Notes under the pieces: model-generated | The model's database searches: none | Told to the model about the DNA's origin: nothing | Seen by the model: only the letters and a program-made list of their open reading frames with translations | Shown here: positions 14,005 through 37,750 of the stretch, one piece after another | Position numbering within the stretch: position 1 is the first letter of the stretch | Layout: each line of letters starts with the position of its first letter | Position numbers and translations under genes: made by a program | Source: Melastoma dodecandrum | Taxonomy: Eukaryota > Streptophyta > Magnoliopsida > Myrtales > Melastomataceae | Length of the DNA stretch: 64,000 nucleotides | Direction of reading: 5' to 3' | NCBI GenBank assembly: GCA_029817715.1 | Contig: JARUPY010000190.1 | Location: 3,162,001 to 3,226,000, forward strand

Positions 14005-14407
14005 GGGGGAACTTGTGCTCTTTCTCCAGGAACACAGAAATGCTTATCATGCATAGAATAATTTGTAACTCACTATTGGATGATATTGTTAGGACCACAA
14101 ACATAATTAGAATGTATTTAACTCATATTATTAGTATTATACTTAATAAGGTAAATAATAATGAAGCATGTCAATGTTTCAAATGTTTAAATTACACCTT
14201 AATCTATTGGGGCAAAGAAGAATGATAGAAATCAATTTGATGATAAGCAAAACACAAGATTTGATATAAACAGAGCATCATCCTTCATTCATTCAGGTGG
14301 GAAATAGATGGAGATAATAATGGGATTGAGTTATTTCAGCTACCACCACCAAACATACAACCAGTCGGGGATACAATCCATCAGGCTGGTATTCTGGCTT
14401 CGGAGCT

Positions 14408-17400
14408 TCATCCCACCAGAGATTTGATGGATCGTAGTTTCCCTGCGGCCGCGCGGATGTCCATCCTTTCTTCAGGCGACTCAATACAGCATGCGATTCC
14501 GATTTCAAACACCTTCGCTAGACCTTCTATAATCCTTTGCGGAGCACGGGCGATCGATCCTTCTCCAAACTCATTTAAAAACAGACTAGGGTCTGCTATT
14601 TCACCCACTCTTTCCGGCAATGCGGCCTCGCAGTGGCTTCGAATGTTCCACGCATCCTGGAACATGTCGTCGGTCGGCCTCTTTCCAGTAAACATCTCCA
14701 GCAAAAGAATTCCGTAGCTGTAAACATCGCCTTCCCTCGACACTTGGCTTCCCATTCCATACTCTACAAATATTCCGTATTAAATGACCTATACTATGAG
14801 TACAAGCTAACAATTATTGGAAACCACATTTACATAAAATCGACGCACCTGGAGGGCTGTAGCCGACAGTCCCTCTCACTCCCGTCGAGCTGACTTGAAC
14901 AACAACATCATCGGCAGAGAGAATTCTCGTGAGGCCGAAATCACCGACGTGTGCTGTCATAGCCGAGTCCAGGAGAACATTGCTTGGCTTCAGATCACAG
15001 TGAATCAGCGGCATATCACAATCATGATGGAGATACTCCACAGCGCAAGCAATGTCCACGACAATACTCAGCCTATACCTTAAACTTAACTTCCGGCGCA
15101 CTCCCTCATTTGTAACTTTAGGATGCAACCAATCGTCCAGGCTTCCACTTTCCATGTACTCATACACAAGCGCCTTAAAATCATTACCTCGGAAGTCGAT
15201 GGTCGAGCAGATCGTAGAAATCTTAACGAGATTTCGATGTCTGATTTTTTTTAACACCTCACATTCTGCCACAAAACTTTTTGAAGCTGCTCGATTTCGG
15301 AGGTCGAGAACCTTAATGGCTACAACATTATCAGAATTTCCAAGGATCCCCTTATACACCGAACCAAAACCACCGACACCAATCAAGTTATTTTGATTAA
15401 GCCCACCGGTCGCCCTGAGTATATCCTCGTACGAAATTTGTGGAAAAGGGTCTTTGGAAATCAACCCGGACTGTGGCTTTACGTTTCTTCTTTTTCTGTC
15501 CATGCAACGATACGATGCAAGAAACAAAAGCAGAGGAAACAAGATTCCGATCCCACCGGCGATCGTGATGATGATCTTCGACAATAATTTTTTCCTTCCG
15601 CGCTTCAGATTAGAGGTAGGACAGCTTGGTAAGTTCAATGCAGAAATCCCACCACAGAGTTTGTAATTTCCCATGATCGAGATCTCTGTGGCATTTAGGA
15701 AAACTCCTTTATTTGGAACTTCTCCCTCGAAATGGTTGAAGGATAAATTGAGGTATGTGAGCTGGAAGTCTCCTAAGAATTTTGGTACACGACCAGAGAA
15801 GTTATTCTGGGATAAGTCTAGTTGTTGAAGTCCTTTCAGAGGAGATAGAAACGGGGCGATGCTGCCTTCAAATAGATTATTCCCAACGTGCAATAACCCC
15901 AAGCTGGTGCATCTACCGAGAGTGTTAGGGACTTGTCCAGACAGTCTATTCCCGTGCACATCTAATATTGCTAGGCTCTTCAGATCACCGACTTCATCTG
16001 GCAGAGCACCAATTAATTTGTTCTGAGATAAATCAAGAAAGTATGATAAGGAAGAAATACCCAAGACTTGAGATGGTATAGTTCCAGTCAGGTTGTTTCT
16101 TGATAGATCAAAACTGATCAAGTTTTGACATTTTTCGAGGCTTTCAGGAATATTCCCACTGAATCCGTTCACCGCCAACGACAGTATCATCAACATTGTC
16201 AAATTTCCAATAGAAGATGGGATTTCCCCGAAGTAATTGCTGTTCCCTGCTCGTAGGTTCTTCAACTTGTTGAGGTTACCGATCTCCTTTGGGAGCATAC
16301 CATTCAACGGGTTCCAGTTGATACTTAGATCTTCCAGGTTGTGAAGATTCCCGATGCTTGAAGGGAGGGTCCCCATGAGCTGATTGGACCAGAATGCCAA
16401 CTTATTCAAATTGGAAGATAAGTTCCCAATAGACTGTGGCAACGTGCCTCCGAAATTGTTTCTGCTGAAATCGAGACGCCATAGCTCGGTGGAATTGAGG
16501 GACTCGAGGAATTTCAAATCCCCTGACTTGCCATTTCCCAATTAATTACCAAAAATACCAAGCCACCACAACCGATTCAGATTTTTGAGATCAGGCACCG
16601 ATCCGTTGAAATTGTTCTGGGACAACTGTAGGCTCACTAAGTTTGTCAGATTGGCTATTGAAGGAGGAATAGGTCCAGTCAACTGATTACCGGCAAAATT
16701 GAAGATCTGGAGATTGGGAAGAGTGATCCTGAGATCCAGAGGGAGACCTCCCTGGAGTTTGTTGATGGGGAACCCTATGCTAATCAGAGAGGTTATGTTG
16801 AAAATCGAGGTGGGTACCGTTCCAGAAAAGAAGTTCCCTCCGAGTTCAATATATTGTAATCTTCGCAAACGCCCAAGAGATGCTGGGATGGGGCCGCTGA
16901 AACCATTTGACATTCCGCCAATGAACTCCAGAGATGACAAGTTGCTGAAGAAATCAGGGAACTGCCCGGTGAAATGGTTTTTGTGGACTTGGAAGACTCG
17001 AAGCTTTGACAAAGTGGACAAACCAGGAGGAATTTCTCCAACAAGCTTGCTGTTTCCCAGAAGGACCTCTTGTAGGTTTATGCATCTTGAGATGTTCTCT
17101 GGGAGCTCCCCCGAAAACGAATCCATGCGCAAAACTGTCAACCGACGCAAGTTCCCTATTTCTGGGGGGATTTCGCCGACAAAACCATTGTTGTTGAGGT
17201 CTAATATCCTGAGGAAGCTGAGATTCCCAATGTAGGGAGACAAGGAGCCCCCCAGCCTGGAGTCGGGAAGCATCAATTCGGTGACGCGGGGACGTCTACT
17301 GCTGCAAGTTACACCCGGCCAATGACAGAAGAGCACGGTATCATTCCACGAGGTGAATACACCATCGGGGTCATCAGGTATCCGGCCCCTGAACTCCAGC

Positions 17401-17501
17401 AATGCAGCCCGGTCGGTTTTGTTGGTCTTAGCCACTGCTGCTCCCTGGACAACAATCAAAACACTGGGGGAAAACAGGAGACAAGTGAATAATAATATCA
17501 T
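14408..17501 (-). pseudogene. RLK-2: near-complete LRR-XII receptor-like kinase with one nonsense codon
   Basis: This is a pattern-recognition-type receptor kinase of about 1,002 codons. Reading minus: signal peptide, LRRNT with CHWPGVTC, some 20 LRRs, transmembrane helix (around residues 635-660), glycine loop IGVGGFGSVYKG, VAIKV lysine, HCDLKPSN (HCD, so a non-RD kinase) and DFGL. Exon 1 is 17501-14849. The intron is 14848-14764 (85 bp, GTGCGT donor, AG acceptor), placed between CCA and GAG as usual in this family. Exon 2 is 14763-14408, ending SLVG-stop. There are two defects. One is TAA at 16542-16544, in a frame open on both sides. The other is the site aligning with the RLK-1 ATG, about 8 codons upstream of 17501, which reads CTG, so the Met at 17501 would be used and the signal peptide is shortened. 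A sequencing error at the TAA is possible; otherwise it is a young pseudogene. Confidence 0.85.
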
Positions 17502-18589
17502 AAAAGCAGGGCAGGAATCCAGAATTATTTCTGATAACTAGTAGTAAATAACTCTCTCTGTTGGCATCACTCTCCACGTAGCCCTCCTATATATAATCAA
17601 TCCACTCGAGGAAAGGTCCCGCACCCGTTTCATGACTTCTTAATTAACCCAGCGTTACGCTCTACTCGTTCGAAGGGGACACTCTGGACGTTCGGGATTT
17701 CTCGTTCGAATTTCAACAATCACGTTCACCGAAATCAGCGTTGGTGCATTTTTTATTTATAATAATAGTATTTTTTTTCTTGAAGTTTTTAAAATAGGAC
17801 GTCATGTGCTTTTCAATCGTAAATCACACGCGAGAAACGTAAAATTATTTAACTTAAAATAAAGTAAGAGTACCCGGCGAAACTTTTGACAATGTAATAA
17901 GTTAAAAGAAATGGATGTAGGACTGTGACTTTTGGCTTCTAACCCTCTGTTTGGTTAACAAAAAGGTATTTAACGGATGTAAATCTGTAATGCAGCTACT
18001 TTCACGTAATTATTGTTTCGCGGTTGCACTCCGTAAAATTTTACGAAATTTCCGTTGCGCTTCATAAAATCGAACGAGCGGTTTCGTAAATTCTTCTTCT
18101 TTTTAATTGTTTATTCGAATCTCTTGCCGCGATCATGACTTTCTTTTGGGTTTACATTGTATATGTATTGAGTGTGTATATATTAATACTTTTTTTTTTC
18201 TTTCATTGATTTTGTCTAAAATTCTTTCTTAAGGGTATTTCCAATTCCCAGATTCAAACTATAGTTTGAATTAGAAGGCGTGATTTATTAAAAGTGTTAA
18301 TCACGTCCTAAATTAATTGTAATTCTTTATTTCAAATTATGTGGTCGTCTTACAAAAGAAATTTGTGTATTAAATTTTCTTAATTAAAATCAAATCACAA
18401 TATTTATTTATTTGTCCATTATTTTAGCAATGTTATAATTTTGTTTTTTTTTCTAACTAAAAAACGTTGTGAAAATACAATTCATTTTAATAAAAGAAGT
18501 ATTTTGGAATCATAAATATATTAAAAAAACATTTAACCGGAGGAGGTTATGGAGTTGTGCCTAAGGAGGGATTTTGTGCCGCACATGCC
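17502..18589. other. Upstream region of RLK-2 and 3' flank of RLK-3
   Basis: Bases 17571-17640 are just upstream of RLK-2, and a TATATAA-like box appears near 17590 on the correct side. Bases 17860-18250 duplicate 1500-2030. The rest is AT-rich with T runs near 18188. I see no coding sequence. Confidence 0.5.
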
Positions 18590-20279: not shown

Positions 20280-20413
20280 AAATAGAGAATCTAAAAGCAG
20301 AGGAGGAACCCATAATTTTCTAGACTGCCTTTGCCGCTTCACAGAGTCCACTTTGCTTCTTGTTATTCAATGGCTTTTTCTAAGTAGAACTGACTTTGGA
20401 GTCACAAGAAGAT
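20280..20413 (-). pseudogene. RLK 5' relic at the retrotransposon insertion site
   Basis: AGCAGAGGAGGAACCCAT, read on minus, gives a start ATG near 20312 and a few signal-peptide codons. The upstream stretch 20315-20400 resembles 5671-5760 upstream of RLK-1. The coding part diverges after about 8 codons. The Athila-like element begins at 20414, and the homologous upstream sequence resumes at 36605-36800, so the element sits in this RLK upstream region. Confidence 0.65.
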
Positions 20414-21756
20414 TGATAACTCTAGTAAAATAGAGTTATATTATCACATTTAGGCTTAATTCTAGTTAGTTTCGAGAATTTTAATGGTTATTGTTGCCAA
20501 TTGAGCTGTAAATTGTCATTCATCACGTTTGCTTTGTGATCGTAGGAAGTAAATGAAGGCATGACGGAAAACAAAGCAAAAAGGGTGAAGGATGAAGAGG
20601 AATAGAAGGCGGAGGATTTAGTGCAGCTGCACAATGAAGCTCTTGCAGCTGCACAAGTAAAGCAGAAGAACGACAGACAAGCTCGTGCAGCTACAACTCC
20701 AAGCTCATGCAGCTGCACGACGAAAGGAGGAATCGATCAAGGACGTCAGACTGGTCGTTGCAGCTGCAACGCCAGTCCCTTGCAGCTGCACGAGTGCGTC
20801 AGGGCAAATTGAAAAGAGCTTCAGAGAGGTCGTTGCAGCTGCACGACATAATATTGCCCGAAAATTAGATTTTATTTTTTAGATTTGCTTTAGGTATAAA
20901 AAGATTGGATTTTAGGTTTATGGGAGAGCTTCCTCTTTCTTCCCCTTCGGACTTTAGTTTTGGCACCCGACGACGGCTAGGAACAAGGAGACGAAGACGT
21001 TGATGGAGACTTCGACGATTTTTCTTTTCTCTTTGCTTTTTGTTTCGTTTGCGATGTCGAACTAAACATCTTTTTTCTAGGATGATGATGAACCGACTCG
21101 TGTAGTTGGTTATCTATTTTTTCGGAATCAATTCAAGAAGATTTATCGTTTACTTGTGTTTCTTCTGTGTTTAATGCTTACCTATCGGGTTGATCGCCGG
21201 TTTGTATGAACTCTTAGTCCTAAGTGAACTCGAGAGAGACTTAGGATTAGAAGAGGGAAACATAACTTAGGTTAAGGCCGAGAGATCGGCCTAACTAAGA
21301 GGAGTATAGAGATATACACTCGTAGGTAACCGAGAGAACAATTGGATCTCAAGGAATTCTGATTATTCGTGATTCGCTATAGAAATATAGGTTTACGGGT
21401 GATTAGTAATTCACAGTTACAACCTCGAGAGAGGTGTAGCGATTGTTAGGGAATTGTGGTTAGTAAACGGTAAAACGGATTGAATTGAGGAAGAGAGAGT
21501 GTGATAATCTACGAATCGATAGGGGATTCGGAGTCCTAGGCCTTTATTATTTGAATTACAACCTTGCTTTCATTTTTCTTGCGATTTACTTTCTTGCACC
21601 AAACCTTTCATTACTCAACCTTCTTGACTAGAATTTGAACTCAATAATTGAATTTTGGCAGTAGATTCTGTTTAATCAGTCCTCGTGGGAACAATCTTTC
21701 TCATCACTTTATTACTTGGCGCGACCCGTATACTTGCGAGTGCGTTTTAGCGAACA
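20414..21756 (+). repeat. 5' LTR of the Athila-like element
   Basis: It starts TGATAACTCTAG and ends TTAGCGAACA (TG...CA), 1,343 bp. A TATAAAAAG box lies at 20895-20903. TGCAGCTGCA palindromes occupy 20622-20843. The three minus-strand LTRs at 29980, 32067 and 34147 are the same sequence with roughly a few percent differences. The 5' LTR lacks one palindrome unit that LTR A keeps (near 20834). Confidence 0.9.
20622..20843. promoter_or_regulatory. Paired TGCAGCTGCA palindromes in the LTR
   Basis: Copies lie at 20622-20631 and 20644-20653; at 20686-20695 (one mismatch, GCTACA) and 20708-20717; at 20759-20768 and 20781-20790; and a lone copy at 20834-20843. In each pair the gap is exactly 12 bp, so centres are 22 bp apart, about two helical turns. 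They lie upstream of the TATA box. Each contains the E-box core CAGCTG, and CAG/CTG sites are symmetric CHG methylation targets. The regulatory role is inference. Confidence 0.7.
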
Positions 21757-21762
21757 AGTTTT

Positions 21763-21780
21763 TGGCGCCGTTGCCGGGGA
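21763..21780 (+). other. Primer binding site, tRNA-Asp type
   Basis: TGGCGCCGTTGCCGGGGA is complementary to the 3' end of plant tRNA-Asp as I recall it, and is the usual primer site in Athila/Tat elements. It lies 6 bp after the 5' LTR end and would prime minus-strand DNA synthesis. Confidence 0.85.
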
Positions 21781-21861
21781 CTGAAATAGAATTATTTCAG
21801 TCAATTTTCGGTTACAAGTTTTATTCTAGTCACTGATTCTCTTTTCATCTTTTGCAGGTGT

Positions 21862-23373
21862 ATGCGACATCGCAAAGGTGACAAAGAGCTACTCTTTGAC
21901 CCAGAAATTGAACGAACTTTTCGGATTTTACGAAGAGGTCAAAGGGACACCATGGCGAACGCCAACAACAACAACAATGTTGTTGACATTACGGCGCAGC
22001 AACAGCCGAGGACGATGCGGGACTATGCATAGCCGACTCCCCAAAATCATGCTGGTTTTCTACGTCCTGAAATTCAGGCGGATACGTTTGAAATTAAACC
22101 TTCAATTATTCATATGATCGAAAATTCGAACTTCGGAGGTTTAATTAATGAAGATCCACACTGGCACCTAACGCGTTTTGAGGATTTGTGTGGCACTTTC
22201 AGGTATCATGGCGTATCGGCAGAAGCAATCAAGTTGAGGTTGTTCCCGTTCTCGCTTCGAGACAAGGCCAGAGCGTGGCTATATTCGCTGCCTGGAGAGT
22301 CAGTCAGCTCATGGGACGACCTCCGAAAACACTTCCTGTCCAAGTACTATCCACCGAGCCGAACCGTGAAGATAAGGAACGACATTACTTCGTTCCGCCA
22401 ACTAGCAGGTGAATCAATGTACGAAGCATGGGATCGCTTTAAGGAGCTGCAAAGGTTATGCCCCCACCACGACATCCCAAAGTGGATGTTGGTTCAGAGT
22501 TTCTGCGACGGGCTAGCGGAGCAACTCCAGTCCACAATCGACTCTGCTGCCGGAGGCACCATTATGAATAAGACTCCAGATGACGCGTTAGAGCTATTTG
22601 AGGCAATGGCTACTAATGGCCAGAGGAGAACACCAGCAAGAGGAGGACTCCAGCAAATTGATGCTATCACAGCCCTTAGTTCTCAATTGGAGACTTTGAC
22701 TAAGGAGATGGCTGCTTTGCGTACGTCGACGCAATTATCTAACGCTCCTCGCTCTAATATGCAGGTTATGGAGATGCAGGAGTTGGAGGAGGCGAATTAC
22801 GTGGGAGGCAACAACAGGAATAACCCGTACTCCAACACGTACAACCCAGGATGGCGCAACCACCCCAATTTCTCGTGGAGAAGCAATCAAGAGCATCAGG
22901 ATGCCGGGCCTACGCGACCAAACCAGCCACCGGGATTTGTACCCCCGATGCGACAACCCGTAAGTGAACCTAAGTCTAGTGTTGAGGATTTATTGAGACA
23001 GGTTCTTGCTAGTAATGAGGAGGTCCGGAAACAACAAGAGGAGACAAGGAAGCAACAGGAGCTCATACTAAAGGATCACGCGACCTCGATCAAGCAATTG
23101 GAGATGCAAATGGGACAACTTGCAGGATCGTTAGTCATGATACCACATGGAACGCTACCGAGTAACACGGAGCTCAACCCCAAGAATCGAGAGAACTGCA
23201 GCGCGATTACCCTTCGAAACGGGAAGGACCTTGAAGAGGAGTTTGAGCGGCAAGAACCGAAAAGGAGCAGGCCAGAGCGAAACGACAGGCCAAGGTACGT
23301 GAGACGGAGTCTGGAAAGGACTCTGAGCATCATAGCTCAGAAACACCGGTACGTACCAATCCTGTGCCTGTAA
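21862..23373 (+). pseudogene. Athila-type gag with one TAG codon
   Basis: Gag forms the particle that packages element RNA. From ATG 21862 the frame reads MRHRKGDKELLFDPEIERTF, runs through an Asn-rich stretch, and meets TAG at 22030-22032 in a context where CAG (Gln) is a plausible ancestor. It then continues in the same frame: HMIENSNFGGLINEDPHWHL, the retrotransposon gag core (RLFPFSLRDKARAWLYSLP, WDDLRKHFLSKYYP), and a C-terminal part with NPYSNTYNPGWRNHPNFSW and a coiled-coil Gln/Glu-rich segment. No CCHC zinc knuckle is visible, as is usual for Athila. The frame closes at 23371-23373, overlapping the open pol frame by 127 bp. Confidence 0.88.
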
Positions 23374-26300
23374 TTCCTGTTATTCTGCAAGTTCCATTTC
23401 CGCAAAGGATAAAGAAAAACACTGATGAGCAACAGTTTAAGAAATTTCTTGAGGTTTTTAAGAAGTTGCAGATCAACATACCTTTTGCGGAGGTACTCGA
23501 GCAAATGCCGAGTTACGTGAAGTTCATGAAGGACATTTTATCGAAGAAGCGGAAGCTTGGAGGGCACGAAACCATCTCACTGACCGAGGAATGCAGTGCG
23601 ATCGTGCAAAGAAGACTCCCACCAAAACTCAAGGATCCAGGTAAGTTCACTATCCCGTGCCACATTGGAACGGATTTTTTTGGTCATGCTTTATGTGATT
23701 TAGGGGCGAGCATCAACTTGATGCCATTTTCAGTGTTCAAGAAATTGAACATCGGCGAAGTAAGACCGACGTCTCTGACTTTGCAATTAGCTGACCGATC
23801 GTACACGTACCCTAAGGGTATTGTGGAAGATGTTTTGGTGAAAGTAGACAGGTTCATCTTCCCCGCGGACTTCGTCATCCTGGATTACGAGGAAGATCGA
23901 GAGGTCCCCATCATCCTAGGACGACCGTTCTTAGCAACGGGGAGGACACTAATCGATGTCCAGAAGGGAGAGCTTACCATGAGGGTCCACGACCAAGAGG
24001 TGACGTTCAACATGGACAAGGCTATGAAAATGCCTAACGAAATTTATGAATGCAGGTACGTGGACATACTTGAGGAAGTTTCCATCGAGACGTTCCTAGA
24101 AGCATTTGAGCTACAGCCGGAAGAAGAATTGCCGAAGGAAGATGCATTACAAGATGAGAAGTCTGAGGAAGAGGTGGCCTTTGTGCGGCAATTCCAAAGG
24201 GTGGAACCCCTGGACCGACCTGCAACGACCACTAAGCCGTCCATTGAAGAACCCCCGAAGCTGGAACTAAAGCCGTTGCCTGACCACTTAAGGTATTCCT
24301 ACCTGGGTAAGGACAATACTCTTCCGGTTATTATTTCATCGTCATTAACTAACGAACATGAAGAGATGCTGCTACGAGTGCTTCGGGAGCACAAGACAGC
24401 TATTGGATGGACCATCGCAGACATAAAGGGGATTAGTCCAGCAGTTTGCATGCACAAGATTGTCCTGGACAGTGACAAGAAGCCATCAGTCGAACATCAA
24501 AGGCGATTAAACCCGCATATGAAGGAGGTGGTAAGGAAAGAAGTTATTAGATGGCTTGATGCAGGTATCATTTATCCGATCTCGGATAGCTCGTGGGTGA
24601 GCCCAGTTCAGTGCGTGCCTAAAAAAGGAGGCATAACGGTGGTCGAGAACAGCAAGAGTGAGCTCATTCCAACAAGGACGGTCACCGGATGGAGAATATG
24701 CATGGACTACAGGAGGCTCAATGCAGCCACATGCAAGGATCATTTCCCGCTTCCCTTCATCGATCAGATGTTGGACCGTCTCGCAGGTAAGAGTTTTTAT
24801 TGTTTTCTGGACGGATATTCAGGTTATAATCAGATAGCGATCGCACCGGAGGATCAGGAAAAGACCACCTTCACTTGCCCCTACGGTACGTTCGCTTTCC
24901 GTCGTATGCCGTTTGGATTATGTAATGCGCCTGCCACGTTTCAGCGATGTATGACAGCGATTTTTTCGGACATGATTGAGAAGACCATTGAGGTATTCAT
25001 GGATGATTTCTCAGTCTTTGGAGTGTCATTTAAAAATTGTTTGGATAATCTTGCGGCTGTTCTTGCACGATGTGAACAGACTAACCTGATTCTGAATTGG
25101 GAAAAGTGCCACTTCATGGTGCGCGAAGGCATTGTGCTTGGTCACAGGATTTCGGAGAGTGGTATCGAAGTGGACAAGGCCAAAGTGGAGACGATCGAGA
25201 AGCTACCCCCTCCAACATCAGTGAAAGGAGTCCGAAGCTTCTTGGGACACGCTGGCTTCTACAGGAGATTTATTAAGGACTTCTCGAAGATCACCAAGTC
25301 GCTATGCAATCTCTTGGAGAAGGATGCACCATTCCTTTTCGACAGTAAGTGTATGGAAGCATTCCTTACACTAAAAGAGAGGTTAGTATCATCACCGATC
25401 ATTGTCGCCCCTGATTGGAACTTGCCTTTCGAACTGATGTGCGATGCGAGTGATTTAGCTGTAGGAGCGGTGTTTGGACAAAAGAGAGATAAGCACTTTC
25501 GTGCTATTTACTATGCTAGTAGAACACTTGACTCCGCCCAGGTTAATTACACGACAACAGAAAAAGAAATGTTGGCGATTGTGTTTGCTTTCGATAAGTT
25601 TAGGCCCTATTTGATTGGGTGTTCAGTGATTGTGCATACTGATCATGCGGCCATACGTTACTTGATTTCTAAGGCGGACTCAAAACCGCGACTAATCCGT
25701 TGGGTGTTATTATTGCAAGAGTTTGATCTTACCATCGTAGACAGGAAAGGTTCCGAGAACCAAGTGGCTGATCACCTATCCAGGCTGGAGGAGGGAATGG
25801 CGAGCACACCTTCGACTCTGATCAACGATTCCTTCCCTGATGAGCAACTGTTCGTTATGGAGGTAGCCGCGCCTTGGTATGCCGACTATGTGAACTACAT
25901 AGTCGCAAATATTTTTCCTCCGGACATGACAAGCCAACAGCGGAAAATGTTCATCCATGACGTTAAATTCTATATGTGGGATGAACCTTTGCTTTTTCGG
26001 AAATGTGCAGACCAGGTCATTCGGCGTTGTGTTCCGGAGGAAGAAATCAGGCCGATCCTTGAGCAATGCCATGCCGCCCCGTACGGTGGACATTTCGGTG
26101 GTCAGAAAACCGCAGCAAAGGTCTTACAATCAGGTTTCTACTGGCCCTCATTATTTAAGGATGCTCACACTTTTGTAGCACAGTGCGATCGCTGCCAACG
26201 GGTAGGAAATATTTCACGTCGTGATGAAATGCCCTTAAATAATATTCTAGAAGTCGAACTGTTCGATGTGTGGGGGATAGATTTCATGGGGCCCTTTGTT

Positions 26301-27155
26301 GATTCCTTAAAGAACAAATACATTTTAGTGGCTGTTGATTATGTGTCCAAATGGGTAGAAGTTGTCGCATTACCCACTAACGATGCTCGTGGAGTTTTGA
26401 AATTTCTTAGACAGATTTTCACGCGGTTCGGAACACCACGAGCCATCCTCAGTGACGGTGGAGCTCATTTCTGCAACAACAAGTTCACTACACTGATGCG
26501 GAAATATGGAATCAAGCATAAGGTGGCGTTGCCCTACCATCCTCAAACATGCGGCCAAGTAGAAGTGTCCAACCGCGAAATCAAGAGGATCTTGGAGAAA
26601 ACGGTAAGTGCTAATCGAAAAGATTGGTCCACCAAACTTGACGATGCGCTATGGGCATACAGGACAGCCTTCAAGACCCCGATTGGGACATCGCCGTACA
26701 AGCTAGTATATGGAAAAGCCTGTCATCTGCCGGTGGAGCTAGAGCACAAGGCTTATTGGGCGGTTCAAAAGCTTAACCTGGACCCAAGCGCAACAGGGGA
26801 GCAGCGATTAATGCAGCTGAATGAAATGGAGGAATTTCGGAGAGACGCATACGAGAATGCTCGCATTTACAAAGAGAAGACCAAGGCGTGGCATGATCGT
26901 CAACTTAAAGAGCGTAAATTCTCCCCTGGTCAGTTAGTACTTTTATTCAATTCACGGCTTCGGTTGTTTCCAGGGAAACTCAAATCGCGCTGGTCAGGAC
27001 CTTTCGAAATTACCCAGGTACTACCATTCGGTGTTCTCGAATTAGTAGGTACTGACTCTTCTGACAGGTTCAAGGTGAATGCAAGTTGCGTCAAGCCATA
27101 CTTTGGAGGTGTTGTCCACCGGGATCCGCGAACACTAATGATGAAAGACACGTAA
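23247..27155 (+). CDS. Athila-type pol polyprotein (protease, RT, RNase H, integrase)
   Basis: The polyprotein makes and integrates element cDNA. The frame is open from 23247 (after a TGA at 23244-23246) to the stop at 27155; its first ATG is at 23364. Domains in order: aspartic protease with [11 protein letters not shown]; reverse transcriptase with [20 protein letters not shown] and catalytic FMDD; RNase H with [12 protein letters not shown] and [14 protein letters not shown]; integrase zinc finger ([16 protein letters not shown]); and the DDE core ([25 protein letters not shown]). No stop interrupts about 1,300 codons. It is one frame back (-1) from gag, with the transition somewhere between 23247 and about 23370. 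Most likely a 1-bp loss broke a single gag-pol frame, possibly in the AAAA run near 23258; programmed frameshifting is the alternative. Confidence 0.92.
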
Positions 27156-27165
27156 AAGACCAAAG

Positions 27166-27214
27166 CGTCAGGCTGACGACGTTAAATCAAGCGCTGCTCG
27201 GGAGGCAACCCGAG
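27166..27214 (+). promoter_or_regulatory. Two stem-loops just after pol
   Basis: CGTCA-GGC-TGACG (27166-27178) and CTCGGG-AGGCAA-CCCGAG (27197-27214) are perfect stems 18 bp apart, starting 10 bp after the pol stop. The second lies in the GCGCT...GGGAGGCAACCC block that I recall as widely conserved downstream of pol in Athila and related elements. Function unknown; an RNA element is the natural guess. Confidence 0.6.
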
Positions 27215-27351
27215 TCAAATTTTATTTCATTTTCTTGGTTAAATTGTTTTATTTCAGTTTTTGAGTTTGATTTTGGCTAAATTGTCCAGGGAGCAGAAAT
27301 TACGGAGCGATAAAATCACGGGACCGGTGCAACTAAAAGGAGAAGTCAGAC

Positions 27352-27740
27352 ATAATGGTGCAGCTGCACCATTATTTCGTGCAGCTGCATGGGGGACGAA
27401 GGAAGACCGTCTGACATGGCGGTGCAGCTGCATCGTCCAGGTCATGCAGCTGCACGACTCATCCAGAAGGACAAGCATCGACAACAGAGGACTCGGTGCA
27501 GCTGCAACCAAATTTCTTGCAGCTGCACGACTAGGGGAGGCCATCAGACCGATCCGTGCAGCTGCACGAAGCTTGGGCTGCAGCTGCACGCTTATAGTGA
27601 GACAATTCAGGGGGCTGTCTGACCGGTCGTTGCAGCTGCAACGACCTCTCGTGCAGCTGCACGAGGCCCCCAGAAACTCAGTACAGATCATCCGACAGGG
27701 TCGTGCAGCTGCACGACCCGACCGGTGCAGCTGCACCGGT
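27352..27740. repeat. Palindrome array between pol and the extra ORF
   Basis: Twelve copies of TGCAGCTGCA form six pairs with 11- or 12-bp gaps and 29-42 bp linkers. First pair: 27359-27368 and 27380-27389. Fourth pair: 27557-27566 and 27579-27588. Last pair: 27704-27713 and 27726-27735. The linkers share a TCTGAC...GGTCG-like phrase, so the basic unit is a diverged tandem repeat of about 64-76 bp. Several copies extend into longer perfect palindromes: 27352-27375 (24 bp), 27625-27646 (22), 27698-27719 (22) and 27721-27740 (20). The motif pairs are the same type as in the LTR. Confidence 0.85.
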
Positions 27741-28047
27741 TCAGATCTGCGAAACAAAAAGAAGAGGGGCCGGCCGCCCAAACCCTAAAATCATTTTTTT
27801 TTCTCTCGCTCACTCGCAGGTCATCTCCCCCAGACGCCCCACCACCTCCGGTGCTTGACGATTCCGCCGATTTCCGTCGTCCACAACCTCCCCCGGTGTA
27901 AGTATCGTTTCTTACCTCTCGAGCTCAAGCGCCCCTGTCCAAATCTCTTCGCTCGGACCTCAGGTGCGCTTTCTTTCCGTCGCTTCTCCGGCAATTAGTG
28001 GCTCTTAACTGTTAGATTAGGACGTGCGTAGGTGACGATTTGGTTGG

Positions 28048-28752
28048 ATGGCTCCTAAGAGGCAGAAAACCGGTGCCGGGTCTTCCTCGGGGCACACCGA
28101 GGACGATAGGATTAGGGAAGCGGCAATGACCCGCTCTATCATTGAGGAGCGCGGGATTAACGCTAATGAGCGGTATCTCGAAAGCTTCCAGTACATAATT
28201 GATAAGCTAGGATGGGTCGAGTTTTGCTGGGAACCGGCTCCGGCTAGTATACCTTTGGTTAGGGAATTCTATGCGAATGCGCATACCTATGACCCGAACG
28301 GTGAAACAATTCGGGTCAAGAATAAGAAAGTGGTATTTAGTCCGGATGCAATTGCGTTGCTTTATAACTTACCCCGTTATGAAACTGATGGCTGGAATGC
28401 GTATCTCGCCGAATCCTTTGATGCCCAAGCAATATTAGAGACATTAACTAGGGACCGGGCAGGAGCACGTTGGATATTGTCGACATCACAAGAACCCATT
28501 GCACTCCAGGGTTCAGATCTCCACGCGACGGCGAAGATGTGGCAACTCTTCGTCTCCGCACGACTTATCCCGGGAACCAACGTCTCCCGTTTAACTAAGG
28601 AAAGGGCGGCGCTGATATAGTGCATATTGCAGTTGAAACAAATTGATGTAGGGGTAGTAATTAATGGTATGATTCATCGTTGCCTTCGTGAACTTAATCT
28701 TGGATTATGGTTTTCCACCATAATCACTGAGTTGTGTAGACAGGCAGGGATG
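28048..28752 (+). pseudogene. Extra 3' ORF (plant-transposon-protein type), N-terminal part
   Basis: From ATG 28048, MAPKRQKTGAGSSSGH is followed by a globular domain (YIIDKLGWVEFCWEPAPA, VREFYANA, DAIALLYNLP, WQLFVSARLIPGTN). It resembles the 'putative plant transposon protein' domain found in an extra ORF between integrase and the 3' LTR of Athila/Tat elements; its biochemical role is not known to me. TAG at 28618-28620 interrupts it; the inverted copy has TAC (Tyr) there. After 28752 the gene is cut by the inverted insertion and resumes at 35480. Confidence 0.8.
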
Positions 28753-29379
28753 AATCATACCATTAATTACTACCCCTACATCAATTTGTTTCAACTGCAA
28801 TATGCAGTATATCAGCGCCGCCCTTTCCTTAGTTAAACGGGAGACGTTGGTTCCCGGGATAAGTCGTGCGGAGACGAAGAGTTGCCACATCTTCGCCGTC
28901 GCGTGGAGATCTGAACCCTGGAGTGCAATGGGTTCTTGTGATGTCGACAATATCCAACGTGCTCCTGCCCGGTCCCTAGTTAATGTCTCTAATATTGCTT
29001 GGGCATAAAAGGATTCGGCGAGATACGCATTCCAGCCATCAGTTTCATAACGGGGTAAGTTATAAAGCAACGCAATTGCGTCCGGACTAAATACCACTTT
29101 CTTATTCTTGACCCGAATTGTTTCACCGTTCGGGTCATAGGTATGCGCATTCGCATAGAATTCCCTAACCAAAGGTATACTAGCCGGAGCCGGTTCCCAG
29201 CAAAACTCGACCCATCCTAGCTTATCAATTATGTACTGGAAGCTTTCGAGATACCGCTCATTAGCGTTAATCCCGCGCTCCTCAATGATAGAGCGGGTCA
29301 TTGCCGCTTCCCTAATCCTATCGTCCTCGGTGTGCCCCGAGGAAGACCCGGCACCGGTTTTCTGCCTCTTAGGAGCCAT
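28750..29379 (-). pseudogene. Inverted copy of the extra ORF N-terminus
   Basis: Minus-strand ATG at 29379, same protein as 28048-28752. Here the frame passes the site that is TAG in the plus copy (IYCILQLKQIDVGVVINGMIH) before running into the loop. It has no C-terminal half. Immediately upstream (29380-29979) is the inverted spacer with its palindrome pairs, joined at 29979/29980 to the exact end of LTR A. Confidence 0.85.
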
Positions 29380-29979
29380 CCAACCAAATCGTCACCTACG
29401 CACGTCCTAATCTAACAGTTAAGAGCCACTAATTGCCGGAGAAGCGACGGAAAGAAAGCACACCTGAGGTCCGAGCGAAGAGATTTGGACAGGGGCGCTT
29501 GACCTCGAGAGGTAAGAAACGATACTTACACCGGGGGAGGTTGTGGACGACGGAAATCGGCGGAATCGTCAAGCACCGGAGGTGGTGGGGCGTCTGGGGG
29601 AGATGACCTGCGAGTGAGGGAGAGAAAAAAAAATGATTTTAGGGTTTGGGCGGCCGGCCCCTCTTCTATTTGTTTCGCAGATCTGAACCGGTGCAGCTGC
29701 ACCGATCGGGTCGTGCAGCTGCACGACCCTGTCGGATGATCTGTACTGAGTTTCTGGGGGTCTCGTGCAGCTGCACGAGAGGTCGTTGCAGCTGCAACGA
29801 CCGGTCAGACAGCCCCCTGAATTGTCTCACTATAAGCGTGCAGCTGCACGAAGCTTGGGCTGCAGCTGCACGGATCGGTCTGATGGCCTCCCCTAGTCGT
29901 GCAGCTGCAAGAAATTTGGTTGCAGCTGCACCGAGTCCTCTGTTGTCGATGCTTGTCCTTCTGGATGAGTCGTGCAGCT

Positions 29980-31344
29980 TGTTCGCTAAAACGCACTCGC
30001 AAGTATACGGGTCGCGCCAAGTAATAAAGTGATGAGAAAGATCGTTCCCACGAGGACTGATTAAACAGAATCTACTGCCAAAATTCAATTATTGAGTTCA
30101 AATTCTAGTCAAGAAGGTTGAGTAATGAAAGGTTTGGTGCAAGAAAGTAAATCGCAAGAAAAATGAAAGCAAGGTTGTAATTCAAATAATAAAGGCCTAG
30201 GACTCCGAATCCCCTATCGATTCGTAGATTATCACACTCTCTCTTCCTCAATTCAATCCGTTTTACCGTTTACTAACCACAATTCCCTAACAATCGCTAC
30301 ACCTCTCTCGAGGCTGTAACTGTGAATTACTAATCACCCGTAAACCTATATTTCTATAGCGAATCACGAATAATCAGAATTCCTTGAGATCCAATTGTTC
30401 TCTCGGTTACCTACGAGTGTATATCTCTATACTCCTCTTAGTTAAGCCGATCTCTCGGCCTTAACCTAAGTTATGTTTCCCTCTTCTAATCTTAAGTCTC
30501 TCTCGAGTTCACTTAGGACTAAGAGTTCATACAAACCGGCGATCAACCCGATAGGTAAGCATTAAACACAGAAGAAACACAAGTAAACGATAAATATTCT
30601 TGAATTGATTCCGAAAAAATAGATAACCAACTACACGAGTCGGTTCATCATCATCCTAGAAAAAAGATGTTTAGTTCGACATCGCAAACGAAACAAAAAG
30701 CAAAGAGAAAAGAAAAATCGTCGAAGTCTCCATCAACGTCTTCGTCTCCTTGTTCCTAGCCGTCGTCGGGTGCCAAAACTAAAGTCCGAAGGGGAAGAAA
30801 GAGGAAGCTCTCCCATAAACCTAAAATCCAATCTTTTTATTCCTAAAGCAAATCTAAAAAATAAAATCTAATTTTCGGGCAATATTATGTCGTGCAGCTG
30901 CAAGGTGAATTCGTTGCAGCTGCAACGACCTCTCTGAAGCTCTTTTCAATTTGCCCTGACGCACTCGTGCAGCTGCAAGGGACTGGCGTTGCAGCTGCAA
31001 CGACCAGTCTGACGTCCTTGATCGATTCCTCCTTTCGTCGTGCAGCTGCATGAGCTTGGAGTTGCAGCTGCACGAGCTTGTCTGTCGTTCTTCTGCTTTA
31101 CTTGTGCAGCTGCAAGAGCTTCACTGTGCAGCTGCACTAAATCCTCCGCCTTCTATTCCTCTTCATCCTTCACCCTTTTTGCTTTGTTTTCCGTCATGCC
31201 TTCATTTACTTCATACGATCACAAAGCAAACGTGATGAATGACAATTTACAGCTCAATTGGCAACAATAACCATTAAAATTCTCGAAACTAACTAGAATT
31301 AAGCCTAAATGTGATAATATAACTCTATTTTACTAGAGTTATCA
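29980..31344 (-). repeat. LTR A (minus orientation)
   Basis: Full LTR from TGTTCGC (29980, complement of the CGAACA end) to GAGTTATCA (31344, complement of TGATAACTC). It keeps all four TGCAGCTGCA pairs. The TATA box reads AATAAAAAG, whereas the 5' LTR has TATAAAAAG. Its U5 end is joined directly to internal spacer sequence, with no primer site, gag or pol. Confidence 0.9.
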
Positions 31345-32066
31345 CACCCCCAAACCTAATCTTTGCTAGTCCTCGAGCAAAACAAAATAAAACATGCCAA
31401 GGCGAAGCAAACACAACTCAACGTCACTCCTCAGACCACCTTAATCCTTTGATTGCAAATTGTCCTTAAATACCCTCAGATGAGGTCGCACACTTCATTC
31501 AGAGTCAGAGTCTATTCACTGCTAGCGTGTGCTATTAACACTTTGCTTTAAAACTCATCCTAGTAGGTTACCCTTTCACAATGATTACCACACACCCTCG
31601 AATCTTTCATAGCCACCGAGGAATTTTCAGGGACTTACCTCTTGCCCCCTCCTTCCACCTACTCATGAACCTTCTACTCAATCATTCTTGTTTCATTTTT
31701 TTTTTCGATTGCACGACTCTAAATGCTAATCAACTCCCGCAAACGCCCGTGTAGCGAGTTCTCAGTCAGTGTCTCCCGGTCCAGTTGGACCAAGGCACTA
31801 GGTGATAACGCACCCCTAGGACGAAAACTCGAGCTGCAAGGAAGACTCACACCACAAGCACATATCCAGGCCTTATCTTTTCATTACTCACTAATCGTTG
31901 CTTCTTTTTCAATTTTTCACACTTCCTAGCCTGGATATTGGTGCTCAGAGCCTTGGCAACCGTTTTCTTTCTCTCTTCTTTTTTTTTTTACAAAGGTCAG
32001 AGCTAGCTTCAAGAGTTGGTTTAAGAGCCCCAACTTATCCCAGTGGCTATACTTTCAAGGAAGGTG
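31345..32066 (-). repeat. 3' UTR segment with polypurine tract, unit 1
   Basis: Reading minus, the 722-bp segment ends in the polypurine tract AGGTTTGGGGGTG (complement at 31345-31357), directly before LTR A's TGATAAC. It contains the phrase TTTGCTCGAGGACTAGCAAAG, familiar from Athila/Tat 3' ends. The small plus-strand ORFs at 31723-32104 fall inside it and are not genes. Confidence 0.85.
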
Positions 32067-33424
32067 TAAAACGCACACGCAAGTATACGGGTCGCGCCAA
32101 GTAATAAAGTGATGAGAAAGATCGTTCCCACGAGGACTGATTAGACAGAATCTACTGCCAATAGTCAATTATTGAGTTCAAATTCTAGTCAAGAAGGTTG
32201 AGTAATGAAAGGTTGGATGCAAGAAAGTAAATCGCAAGAAAAATAGAAGCAAGATTGTAATTCAAATAATAAAGGCCTAGGACTCCGAATCCACTATCGA
32301 TTCGTAGATTATCGCACTCTCTCTTCCTCAATTCAATTCGTTTTACCGTTTACTAACCACAATTCCCTAACAATCGCTACACCTCTCTCGAGGCTGTAAC
32401 TGTGAATTACTAATCACCCGTAAACCTATATTTCTATAGCGAATCACGAATAATCAGAATTCCTTGAGATCCAATTGTTCTCTCGGTTACCTACGAGTGT
32501 ATATCTCTATACTCCTCTTAGTTAAGCCGATCTCTCGGCCTTAACCTAAGTTATGTTTCCCTCTTCTAATCTTAAGTCTCTCTCGAGTTCACTTAGGACT
32601 AAGAGTTCATACAAACCGGCGATCAACCCGATAGGTGAGCATTAAACACAGAAGAAACATAAGTAAACGATAAATCTTCTTGAATTGATTCCGAAAAAAT
32701 AGATAACCAACTACACGAGTCGGTTCATCATCATCCTAGAAAAAGATGTTTAGTTCGACATCGCAAACGAAACAAAAAGCAAAGAGAAAAGAAAGATCGT
32801 CGAAGTCTCCATCAACGTCTTCGTCTCCTTGTTCCTAGCCGTCGTCGGGTGCCAAAACTAAAGTCCGAAGGGGAAGAAAGAGGAAGCTCTCCCATAAACC
32901 TAAAATCCAATCTTTTTATTCCTAAAGCAAATCTAAAAAAATAAAATCTAATTTTCGGGCAATATTATGTCGTGCAGCTGCAAGATGAATTCGTTGCAGC
33001 TGCAACGACCTCTCTGAAGCTCTTTTCAATTTGCCCTGTCGCACTCGTGCAGCTGCAAGGGACTGGCGTTGCAGCTGCAACGACCAGTCTGATGCCCTTG
33101 ATCGATTCCTCCTTTCGTCGTGCAGCTGCATGAGCTTGGAGTTGCAGCTGCACGAGCTTGTCTGTCGTTCTTCTGCTTTACTTGTGCAGCTGCAAGAGCT
33201 TCACTGTGCAGCTGCACTAAATCCTCCGCCTTCTATTCCTCTTCATCCTTCACCCTTTTTGCTTTGTTTTCCGTCATGCCTTCATTTACTTCATACGATC
33301 ACAAAGCAAACGTGATGAATGACAATTTACAGCTCAATTGGCAACAATAACCATTAAAATTCTCGAAACTAACTAGAATTAAGCCTAAATGTGATAATAT
33401 AACTCTATTTTACTAGAGTTATCA
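32067..33424 (-). repeat. LTR B (minus orientation)
   Basis: Same as LTR A but lacking the last 7 bp of the U5 end: the complement of GCGTTTTA is joined to the UTR phrase CACCTTCCTT. It lies 2,080 bp from LTR A in register. The TATA box is AATAAAAAG, as in LTR A. Confidence 0.9.
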
Positions 33425-34146
33425 CACCCCCAAACCTAATCTTTGCTAGTCCTCGAGCAAAACAAAATAAAACATGCCAAGGCGAAGCAAACACAACTCA
33501 ACGTCACTCCTCAGACCACCTTAATCCTTTGATTGCAAATTGTCCTTAAATACCCTCAGATGAGGTCGCACACTTCATTCAGAGTCAGAGTCTATTCACT
33601 GCTAGCGTGTGCTATTAACACTTTGCTTTAAAACTCATCCTAGTAGGTTACCCTTTCACAATGATTACCACACACCCTCGAATCTTTCATAGCCACCGAG
33701 GAATTTTCAGGGACTTACCTCTTGCCCCCTCCTTCCACCTACTCATGAACCTTCTACTCAATCATTCTTGTTTCATTTTTTTTTTCGATTGCACGACTCT
33801 AAATGCTAATCAACTCCCGCAAACGCCCGTGTAGCGAGTTCTCAGTCAGTGTCTCCCGGTCCAGTTGGACCAAGGCACTAGGTGATAACGCACCCCTAGG
33901 ACGAAAACTCGAGCTGCAAGGAAGACTCACACCACAAGCACATATCCAGGCCTTATCTTTTCATTACTCACTAATCGTTGCTTCTTTTTCAATTTTTCAC
34001 ACTTCCTAGCCTGGATATTGGTGCTCAGAGCCTTGGCAACCGTTTTCTTTCTCTCTTCTTTTTTTTTTTACAAAGGTCAGAGCTAGCTTCAAGAGTTGGT
34101 TTAAGAGCCCCAACTTATCCCAGTGGCTATACTTTCAAGGAAGGTG
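33425..34146 (-). repeat. 3' UTR segment with polypurine tract, unit 2
   Basis: This appears base-for-base the same as 31345-32066 wherever I compared, shifted by 2,080 bp, including the polypurine tract (complement at 33425-33437). The near-identity points to recent tandem duplication. Confidence 0.88.
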
Positions 34147-35479
34147 TAAAACGCACACGCAAGTATACGGGTCGCGCCAAGTAATAAAGTGATGAGAAAG
34201 ATCGTTCCCACGAGGACTGATTAGACAGAATCTACTGCCAATAGTCAATTATTGAGTTCAAATTCTAGTCAAGAAGGTTGAGTAATGAAAGGTTGGATGC
34301 AAGAAAGTAAATCGCAAGAAAAATAGAAGCAAGATTGTAATTCAAATAATAAAGGCCTAGGACTCCGAATCCACTATCGATTCGTAGATTATCGCACTCT
34401 CTCTTCCTCAATTCAATTCGTTTTACCGTTTACTAACCACAATTCCCTAACAATCGCTACACCTCTCTCGAGGCTGTAACTGTGAATTACTAATCACCCG
34501 TAAACCTATATTTCTATAGCGAATCACGAATAATCAGAATTCCTTGAGATCCAATTGTTCTCTCGGTTACCTACGAGTGTATATCTCTATACTCCTCTTA
34601 GTTAAGCCGATCTCTCGGCCTTAACCTAAGTTATGTCTCCCCTCTTCTAATCCTAAGTCTCTCTCGAGTTCACTTAAAACTAAGAGTTCATACGAACCGG
34701 CGATCAACCCGATAGGTAAGCATTAAACACAGAAGAAACACAAGTAAACGATAAATCTTCTTGAATTGATTCCGAAAAAGTGGAAAACCAACTACACGAG
34801 TCGGTTCATCCTCATCCTAAGAAAAAGATGTTTAGTTCGACATCACAAACGAAACAAAAAGCAAAGAGAAAAGAAAGATCGTCGAAGTCTCCATCAACGC
34901 CTTCGTCTCCTTGTTCCTAGCCGTCGTCGGGTGCCAAAACTAAAGTCAGAAGGGGAAGAGATAAGAGATCCCCCGTAAACCTAAAATCCAATCCTTTTAT
35001 ACCTAAAGCAAATCTAAAATAAAATCTAATTTTCGGGCAATATTATGTCGTGCAGCTGCAAGATGAATTCGTTGCAGCTGCAACGACCTCTCTGAAGCTC
35101 TCTTCATATCTGCCCTGTCGCACTCGTGCAGCTGCAAGGGACTGGTGTTGCAGCTGCAACGACCAGTCTGATGCCCTTGATCGACAACTCCTCTCGTCGT
35201 GCAGCTGCACGAGCTTGGAGTTGCAGCCGCACGAGCCTGTCTGTCGTCCTTCTGCTTCACTTGCAGCTGCACCATCATCATCCGCCTTCTATTCCTCTTC
35301 ATCCTTCACCCTTTTGCTTTGTTTTCCGTCATGCCTTCATTTACTTCCTACGATCACAAAGCAAACGTGATGAATGACAATTTACAGCTCAATTGGCAAC
35401 AATAACCATTAAAATTCTCGAAACTAACTAGAATTAAGCCTAAATGTGATAATATAACTCTATTTTACTAGAGTTATCA
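34147..35479 (-). repeat. LTR C (minus orientation), mosaic
   Basis: From 34147 to about 34635 it matches LTR B almost perfectly; from there to 35479 it is clearly more diverged (TATA box TATAAAAGG intact, one palindrome pair collapsed near 35263). It ends precisely at the canonical LTR terminus GAGTTATCA, followed by CATAATCAC of the extra ORF. The sharp change in similarity suggests a recombination point inside the LTR. Confidence 0.85.
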
Positions 35480-35987
35480 CATAATCACTGAGTTGTGTAG
35501 ACAGGCAGGGATCAGGGTGGACCCTAAGGATGGGCTGCTCCAACCTCAAAAATCGCTCAACAATGCATCATGGCTCAGGATCCAGCACGAGATCACGGTC
35601 AAGGAGAGACGCGACGGGGGTATAGTCCCGGTTCATACTGCTACTGGAGGGGAAACATCCCAACCCGACCCGACTCCGGTACCGCGTTTTCCCTCTGAGG
35701 AAGAACGTTGGGCTCAAATGACGACGTTCATGCAATCCACGATGGACTTCCAGCAGCGCGCCTTGGCATTCCAGCAAAGTTCCCTGGATTTTCAAGCGCG
35801 TTCGTTAGCTTATCAGCAACATACCATGGACTACCAGAGGTATCAAATGGATTGCCTCCGTCACCTCGGTGTTTCTCATGGCGTGGATTTCTCTTCGTTT
35901 CAGGAGCCCGTTTTTCACTATCCCCCTCCTACGGAAGACGCAGCGGATGATCCTATCTCTGAGGATGAGCAGCCCGGCGACGATTGA
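35480..35987 (+). pseudogene. Extra 3' ORF, C-terminal part
   Basis: It resumes the plus-strand ORF cut at 28752. The sequence ATAATCACTGAGTTGTGT and what follows, to CAGGGAT (28721-28752), is repeated at 35481-35512. The frame then reads RVDPKDGLLQPQKSLNNASW, a Gln-rich segment with repeated MDFQQRAL / LDFQARSL / MDYQRYQ phrases that looks coiled-coil, and a Pro/Asp/Glu-rich tail ending DEQPGDD before the TGA at 35985-35987. Confidence 0.8.
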
Positions 35988-36076
35988 TCAGGGAGTACTA
36001 TTTCCTTTTTCTTTTGCACTTTCTTTTCGAGTTTCCACTACGGTGTTATGTTTGCACCGAGGTCGCTGCAATGTCT

Positions 36077-36089
36077 AGGTTTGGGGGTG
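36077..36089 (+). promoter_or_regulatory. Polypurine tract without a following LTR
   Basis: AGGTTTGGGGGTG is identical to the polypurine tracts that precede LTR A and LTR B on the minus strand, but is followed by TGGTGTTTGTC instead of TGATAACTC. In these elements the polypurine tract primes plus-strand DNA synthesis. As an extra tract upstream of the main one it resembles a central polypurine tract. Confidence 0.75.
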
Positions 36090-36600
36090 TGGTGTTTGTC
36101 TGCTGGTGCGTGTTAGACTCCTTTATGTTTATTAGAAATTTTGTTTAGTTTGTTTTCGTTTTCGATCATTTATCGTTTAAAAAAAAAATAGTTCCTAGAT
36201 TCATGTCGAACCTCCTCAGGTAGCCTTAGGAATTGGAGAGCGAAGAGTCTGACCTTAGGATGATGCCTTGAGGTAGAGCACACCTAAGAAAGAGAAGGAA
36301 GGTGTTCTAAGTTAGCGTGTGGAATTTAAATAAGTAAAAAGAGAAATACTCAGTAGGGAGTATGATTAACAGTGAGAGCTCTACACCTTCCTTCTCTTTC
36401 TTAGGTGTGCTCTACCTCAAGGCATCATCCTAAGGTCAGACTCTTCGCTCTCAAATTCCTAAGGCTACCTGAGGAGGTTCTACATGAATCTAGGAACTAA
36501 TTTTTTTTTTTAAACGATAAATGATCGAAAACGAAAACAAACTAAACAAAATTTCTAATAAACATAAAGGAGTCTAACACGCACCAGCAGACAAACACCA
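36090..36600. repeat. Terminal fold-back: 216-bp inverted arms, 77-bp loop
   Basis: The left arm is 36090-36305, the loop 36306-36382, and the right arm 36383-36600. The left arm's outer edge is the first base after the polypurine tract; the right arm's outer edge is the end of the element, next to AAGAT. The arms differ by only a few bases. No LTR is present. Confidence 0.9.
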
Positions 36601-36605
36601 AAGAT

Positions 36606-37042: not shown

Positions 37043-37750
37043 AAAAGTGACTTTAGGATGGAGCCAATCTAGGGTTCCTTTTTCCATGTACGATGGTTGA
37101 ACAGATAGTGGAAATCTTAACGAGATTTCGATGTCTGATCTTCTTTAATACCTCACACTATGTCATGAAACTTTTCGAAGCTGCTCGAATTTGGAGGTCG
37201 AGAACCTTAATGGCTACCAAATTATCAGAATTACTAAGAATCCCCTGTTATAGGGAACCAAAACCACCGGCACCGATCAAGTTATCTTGATTGAGCCCAC
37301 CGGAAAACCCGAGTATATCCTCATACTAAATTTTTGGAACAGGGCTTTTGGGAACCAACCCAGACTGCGACTTTACGTTTCTTCTTCTTTTTCTGTCCAT
37401 GCAACAACGCGATGCAATCAACAAAAGCACAACAAACAGGAAAGCAATCCCACCAGCGACCGCGATGATGATCTTCAACATGGTTTTCCTTCCGTGTTTC
37501 CATTTCGATGTAGGACATCTTGGTAAATTCAATGCTGGAATCCCGCCACAGAGTTTGTAATTCCCATTACAGAGATCCCTGTGGCATTTAGGAAGACTCC
37601 TTTACTCGGAACTTCGCCCTCGAAATGATTGAAAGATAGATTGAGGTATGTGAGCTCAAAGTCTCCTAAGAATTCCGGGATCCCCCGGAGAAATTATTTT
37701 GTGATAAGCCTAGATACTGAAGTCCTTTCAAAGGAGATAGAAATGCGAAA
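37043..37750 (-). pseudogene. RLK-4: receptor-kinase fragment (last LRR to kinase N-lobe)
   Basis: Reading minus from about 37750: the final LRR (LQYLGLSQNNFSG), the GVFLNATG box, the transmembrane helix (IAFLFVVLLLIASRCCMDRK) and the juxtamembrane part. The kinase glycine-loop region (LIGAGGFGS) and the beginning of helix C follow. Frame changes occur near 37685 and 37565, a stop replaces the SYED position near 37325, and the catalytic-lysine strand is shifted. Similarity stops near 37043, before the catalytic loop. Confidence 0.85.

Follow-up and report, generated by a model that had tools for sequence, protein, structure and literature searches.

The locus considered here raises the question of how a long terminal repeat (LTR) retrotransposon came to be inserted in a plant chromosome with an LTR at one end and a folded-back copy of its own internal sequence at the other. 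It lies in a stretch of 64,000 nucleotides of the Melastoma dodecandrum genome (372.9 Mb in 607 contigs), which corresponds to C503:3162001-3226000 and is referred to below as the window. LRR receptor-kinase-like copies occur in this stretch at 2864-5678, 14311-17530 and 37091-37743, and the element is inserted in an upstream region of the cluster.

The element is of the Athila type and extends from 20414 to 36600 (16,187 bp). It starts with a 5' LTR, L0 (20414-21756, forward strand; TGATAAC...GCGAACA), and a putative primer binding site (PBS), TGGCGCCGTTGCCGGGGA, starts 6 nt past the end of this LTR; it may be complementary to tRNA-Asp, as would be expected in the Athila lineage. The gag and pol reading frames (22114-27155, forward strand) yield Pfam matches in the order Retrotrans_gag, RVT_1 and RT_RNaseH_2, and then Integrase_H2C2 and rve, the last two within the final 385 residues of pol. 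Behind pol there is a third frame, ORF3, the N-terminal half of which, read on an inverted copy at 28705-29379, matches Transposase_32; the C-terminal half (35480-35987, forward strand) gave no Pfam match. The gag-pol domains and the third frame fit the Athila lineage of Ty3/gypsy elements, a presumptive assignment made by anatomy. A spacing of 5 bp between LTR and PBS is given for Diaspora and the Calypso group (PMC1142308). With the N-terminal half of ORF3 as protein query, two relatives were found. Neither a protein search nor a search for the 3'-end pattern detected relatives in viral contigs, and the five loci that carry the 3'-end pattern in genome contigs all lack gag, pol and ORF3 matches.

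At its right end the element carries no 3' LTR and terminates instead in the complement of 36090-36305. The first-pass annotation had described a 216-bp inverted repeat with a 77-bp loop at the end of a 16-kb element, and alignment of the arms bears this out: the inner arm (36090-36305, forward strand) and the outer arm (36383-36600, reverse strand), which is its reverse complement, share 214 matches, with two substitutions and one 2-bp gap. The inner arm begins, as had also been noted, at the first base past an internal polypurine tract, PPT1 (AGGTTTGGGGGTG, 36077-36089, forward strand). This 13-mer occurs three times in the window, at 36077 on the forward strand and at 31345 and 33425 on the reverse strand, and the latter two copies (31345-31357 and 33425-33437) abut LTR starts, in agreement with the earlier description. 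The copy at 31345-31357 is denoted PPT2, the terminal polypurine tract directly preceding an LTR start. Since PPT1 and PPT2 are the same 13-mer, with TG next in both cases, their offset to the integrated end is equal: the outer arm ends at the base right after PPT1, exactly as the LTR follows PPT2.

Whether position 36600 represents a genuine integrated end can be judged from the host DNA. The outer arm finishes with CACCA and adjoins AAGAT (36601-36605), which is found again beside the 5' LTR at 20409-20413, both as initially annotated, and together with TGATAAC on the left these constitute ends of the integrase type. AAGAT accounts for 0.0018 of the 5-mers in the window, and the probability that two random window 5-mers agree by chance is about 0.00125. 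A search with the right flank gave at least 50 matches (40 of 47 candidates scored), and five paralogous loci were compared at the site, three of which (L066, L067 and L068) align to both flanks. Exactly one AAGAT is present at the empty sites of L067, where the junction is gap-free, and of L068, in which a single base (20405) is missing four positions before AAGAT; L066 carries a site variant, GGATTTT, with two extra bases. In the remaining two, both edges of the site are missing (L069) or the right flank alone is matched (L072). A distant paralogue of the RLK-upstream region within the window itself (5642-5996) is collinear with both flanks and too diverged to resolve the site. Eight regular copies of the family were also tried for duplications, one of which, on C439, was excluded because its 5' end lay outside the fetched piece; a perfect 5-bp duplication was seen in all seven copies for which both ends were found. 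The empty-site comparison, which the first-pass annotation had called for, and the 5-bp duplications of the regular copies thus show that 36600 is a true integrated end.

The same result bears on the suggestion that the 3' LTR of an ordinary insertion disappeared once the element was in place, through a deletion combined with inverted duplication. Later changes do exist in the element, including a 2080-bp tandem that matches unequal exchange between LTRs, but a loss of this kind would need breakpoints positioned exactly at the duplicated AAGAT and at the PPT1 offset, with no host DNA lost, and we regard it as extremely improbable.

The order of sequences in regular family copies was established from a genome search with 36040-36305, which gave at least 41 matches, two of them from the window (40 of 77 candidates scored), and for this comparison 18 non-window rows were fetched. 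The arrangement ORF3-PPT1-arm-loop-(A)CACCTTCCTT-UTR-PPT2-LTR is found in 14 of these 18 loci; the exceptions are L013, from which the loop and the greater part of the UTR are missing, and L018, L024 (the two overlap) and L025, which turn back inside the UTR. Because the full order is present in the 14 loci, the inner arm and the loop can be taken as normal family sequence that follows PPT1, a point that had escaped the first-pass annotation, as had the short inverted repeat at the turn. It is precisely at ACACCTTCCTT that the window leaves the regular order; this sequence is complementary to AAGGAAGGTGT, which stands at the end of the inner arm. With two long inverted arms and a short loop, the structure resembles an unrelated terminal-inverted-repeat element, a MITE or other, lying within the 3' UTR. 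Such an origin is barely conceivable, given that the inner arm and loop belong to the regular UTR of the family in those 14 loci and that the structure has no target duplication of its own, GGGTG (36085-36089) standing on one side and AAGAT on the other.

PPT1 itself is a regular constituent of the family. The junction of PPT1 and arm is present, with at most two mismatches, at 64 sites in the genome, and the 13-mer is exact in 59 of them, a figure that was counted by eye and is inflated by the two-mismatch limit. The tract is conserved in 17 of 17 loci at 12 columns and in 16 of 17 at the remaining one; 50 of 389 scoring windows of the region reach values as high, and conservation therefore gives PPT1 no special standing. 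A search of the genome for further copies with such an end had been proposed initially; over the 373 Mb the exact junction was found once, in the window, so that the coincidence with PPT1 depends on a single event. Three genomic copies of the exact 15-mer of the arm start follow a base that is not G, one of them in the outer arm and two in unrelated DNA, in a search that is blind to junctions with a substitution in the 15-mer or a preceding G, and to a TGGGGTG subfamily.

We consider it likely that the cDNA was rearranged during reverse transcription and that integrase joined a normal U3 end (20414) and an abnormal end set by PPT1 (36600) to the host DNA. RNase H processing at PPT1 would have defined the 5' end of a plus-sense strand, and this 5' end would be the abnormal terminus. 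A plus strand would have been primed by PPT1, starting just past the run of G, in the manner of PPT2 before the LTR. A second plus strand, coming from the left, would have displaced the PPT1-primed strand and copied through arm and loop as far as ACACCTTCCTT. There the 11-nt inverted repeat would have let it change templates and continue from AAGGAAGGTGT of the displaced strand back to the 5' end of the latter. Finally, trimming by integrase would have left a CA terminus, which was then joined to the host DNA by a cut with a stagger of 5 bp. We infer the first three of these steps, the choice of template strand and the trimming from the structure of the insertion, and the integrated end suggests that PPT1 served as a plus-strand primer.

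The postulated switch point (36295-36393) consists of AAGGAAGGTGT (36295-36305) and its complement ACACCTTCCTT (36383-36393), arranged around the 77-nt loop (36306-36382). In the window this 11-nt inverted repeat is free of mismatches. The 19 rows aligned from other loci deviate from it, mostly reading AAGGAGGTTGT, and one base of the repeat in the window may be a later change. The element contains 148 inverted pairs of 11 nt that lie no more than 100 nt apart, so that such a pair near the turn carries little weight by itself. Support for turns at short repeats is drawn from both the right-end fold-back and a second, internal one, each of which turns at an inverted repeat or near-repeat.

The first-pass annotation had gone further and proposed that plus-strand DNA started at the internal tract, folded back and copied itself, with the resulting hairpin end integrated in place of an LTR. 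One part of this proposal stands, namely a true integrated end, with a 5-bp target duplication, that replaces the LTR and coincides with the 3' edge of an internal PPT identical to the terminal one. The orientation of the loop and the microhomology at the turn fit copying during reverse transcription; the less certain part is self-copying. According to that scheme, the PPT1-primed strand would be extended to ACACCTTCCTT, snap back and copy its own 5' part, and it would later be joined upstream, opened and copied. The sequence outcome would be the same, an 11-bp stem at the turn is present in predicted RNA and DNA folds, and both arms come from one source lineage (see below). Nevertheless, the scheme requires ligation to an upstream plus strand and copying of the loop before a double-stranded end is available, whereas a switch to a displaced strand gives the end directly, and the folding energy of the hairpin is unexceptional (z -1.79 for RNA and -1.13 for DNA). 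Self-copying is, on this evidence, rather unlikely.

A displaced or sister plus strand is one template that would yield the same sequence as self-copying, and genomic RNA cut by RNase H at PPT1 is another. For the latter, the outer arm would have been copied off RNA ending at the 3' edge of PPT1, with the polymerase running off, and priming at PPT1 would be unnecessary. The cut that generates a PPT primer also produces a downstream RNA, the 5' end of which is the same base; however, RNA located 3' of the PPT in the hybrid is normally degraded, and we judge a template of this kind distinctly unlikely. The switch between plus strands is, of these readings, the one that we prefer.

The arms themselves provide information on their source and age. 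At 36117 both carry A in place of the G seen in 17 of 17 loci, and at 36300 they carry A again, against G in all 15 covered loci. In addition, a single private substitution is present in each arm, position 36207 being changed in the outer arm alone and 36235 in the inner arm alone. The shared private bases imply that both arms derive from one source lineage and that each has changed once since, which is as far as these sites lead. Divergence of the arms had been considered as proof of two different templates, an argument that was dropped on account of the private bases that the right-end arms have in common. If plant sequences are taken to accumulate 0.7 to 1.3 substitutions per site per 100 million years, two differences in 216 bp correspond roughly to half a million years, although the margin is wide. 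The same differences bear on a possible assembly or library artefact, such as a chimeric fold-back read. Palindromic elements are difficult to assemble, but here the arms differ by one private substitution each and by a 2-bp indel, the turn is formed by an inverted repeat that belongs to the normal sequence, and the outer arm meets host DNA at a real target duplication; an artefact is therefore highly improbable.

The inserted molecule is rearranged at several points, the right-end fold-back being one among them. An internal fold-back has arms at 27448-28685 and 28742-29979, and its left arm and turn (27448-28751, forward strand) hold the N-terminal half of ORF3. It turns at AGGCAGGGAT, a short inverted near-repeat at 28751. 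Compared with the complement of the normal strand, 8 of 10 bases agree in the window's own copy and 9 of 10 in regular copies. The exact junction of this fold-back was found only in the window, the other 63 of 64 rows carrying one or two mismatches. Five sites that differ between the arms of this palindrome are also variable among relatives, and mixed templates are possible. As a separate observation, the palindrome arms at 27550-27600 and 29828-29880 differ by a 12-bp micro-inversion between GTGCAGCTGCA palindromes, as seen by eye, and further copies of the GTGCAGCTGCA motif are present in the LTR and in the 3' region.

Beyond this palindrome, the region 29980-35479 contains three LTRs, all inverted and on the reverse strand. 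The first, L3 (29980-31344), is joined precisely at its LTR end to the sequence found at 27448. Two identical 722-bp segments of 3' UTR (31345-32066 and 33425-34146, reverse strand) enclose the second, L2 (32067-33424). The third, L1 (34147-35479), is a variant (B) that is distinct from L0 and L3 and lacks the last nucleotides, and its start is joined to ORF3 at 35480. L2 is a mosaic: its first part resembles L3 apart from a few sites of the L1 type, and its last part resembles L1. This mosaic, the identical UTR copies and the 2080-bp tandem would fit a later unequal exchange between LTRs. The LTR-UTR array was also tested as a small pre-existing element, a reading that was set aside: in genome searches the LTR|UTR junction was free of mismatches only in the two tandem copies of the window, and the LTR|27448 junction was found at no place outside it. 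A 33-bp direct repeat flanks the inverted block (28719-28751 and 35480-35512, the latter being the first 33 bp of the C-terminal half of ORF3), and it exceeds the 5-bp target duplication. The exact LTR ends at 29980 and 35479 would suggest self-integration; a template switch may also account for them, because both junctions overlap the normal neighbouring sequence by 2 nt. The simplest reading of the whole insertion is that several strand switches occurred in one round of reverse transcription, perhaps with self-integration alongside.

Other fold-back insertions of the family are known from the same genome. Among the 64 PPT1 sites, inverted neighbours at distances of up to 3 kb occur on contigs C83, C536 and C592. 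C83 and C536, together with C601 (L045-L049 and L051-L054), carry a 27-kb composite in which segments are inverted and the UTR contains a fold-back, flanked by CTGTT on both sides on C601 and by TTGTT and CTGTT on C83 and C536; the three look like one event in duplicated sequence, as they share host flanks and junctions. The insertion on C592 (L055-L058; C592:2519064-2536829) is a 17.8-kb inverted dimer in which both outer ends are LTR (U3) starts, with TCCAC on each side, and in its middle two PPT2 copies enclose a reduced piece of LTR. Neither the C592 nor the C601-type insertion ends at PPT1, and the fold-backs of both, which lie between target duplications, are likely to predate integration. 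A broader and more doubtful possibility is that the internal PPT functions as a plus-strand origin in elements of the Athila lineage, that displaced strands act as templates or primers, and that palindromic cDNAs may be integrated from any end that terminates in CA. On that tentative reading the ends would be U3 and PPT1 in the window, U3 and U3 in the C592 dimer, and U3 and U5 in the 27-kb composite of C601.

In the normal pathway, the 5' ends formed at internal PPTs remain inside the cDNA. The primary paper on the extra PPT of Athila4 and Calypso is reportedly that of Wright and Voytas from 2002, and another study is said to have found element DNA rearranged by its own enzymes with circles as products; here, in contrast, a palindromic end is joined to host DNA. 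Athila4, Calypso and the Sireviruses are known to carry an additional PPT in the 3' linker, the stretch from pol to the 3' LTR. One source regards it as unclear what several PPTs contribute to plus-strand synthesis, refers to functional internal PPTs reported for Ty1 and HIV-1, and argues that Sirevirus cDNA formed from a PPT without the right integrase signal would be unable to insert (PMC2829016). The present element resembles Athila4 and Calypso in its gag-pol, its further reading frame and its extra PPT in the 3' linker, and it differs in that one integrated copy terminates at the internal PPT. For Ty3, in which no central PPT is known, a model has been proposed whereby re-use of the PPT displaces earlier plus strands (PMC5371799). 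The internal PPTs of HIV-1 and Ty1 and the displaced strands of Ty3 are comparable to what is proposed here, except that in the window the internal 5' end has become the integrated terminus. Asymmetric LTRs, with an intact 5' LTR and a defective 3' LTR, were described for 26 of 88 HIV-1 proviruses and explained by template misalignment during reverse transcription (PMC9278108). They share with our element an intact 5' LTR and an abnormal 3' end attributed to reverse transcription, but theirs is a partial deletion of the 3' LTR, and a fold-back to an internal PPT is absent from the passages of that paper at hand. The first-pass annotation had known of no described plant case. This agrees with a literature search in which, among the matches listed (titles and starts of abstracts, with few subscription journals), no integrated fold-back ending at an internal PPT was found; the extra PPT as such has been published for Athila4 and Calypso (PMC2829016). 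Rearranged products of reverse transcription are as such familiar.

For the family, the insertion offers natural evidence of cleavage of the internal tract at the base predicted, and of acceptance of the resulting end by the family's own integrase. The extra internal start site for plus-strand synthesis may really be used. If the broader possibility raised above were true, fold-back insertions would be a regular by-product of retroelements with multiple PPTs. Genomic inverted repeats can give rise to hairpin RNA and silencing, and insertions of this kind are a possible source of such repeats.
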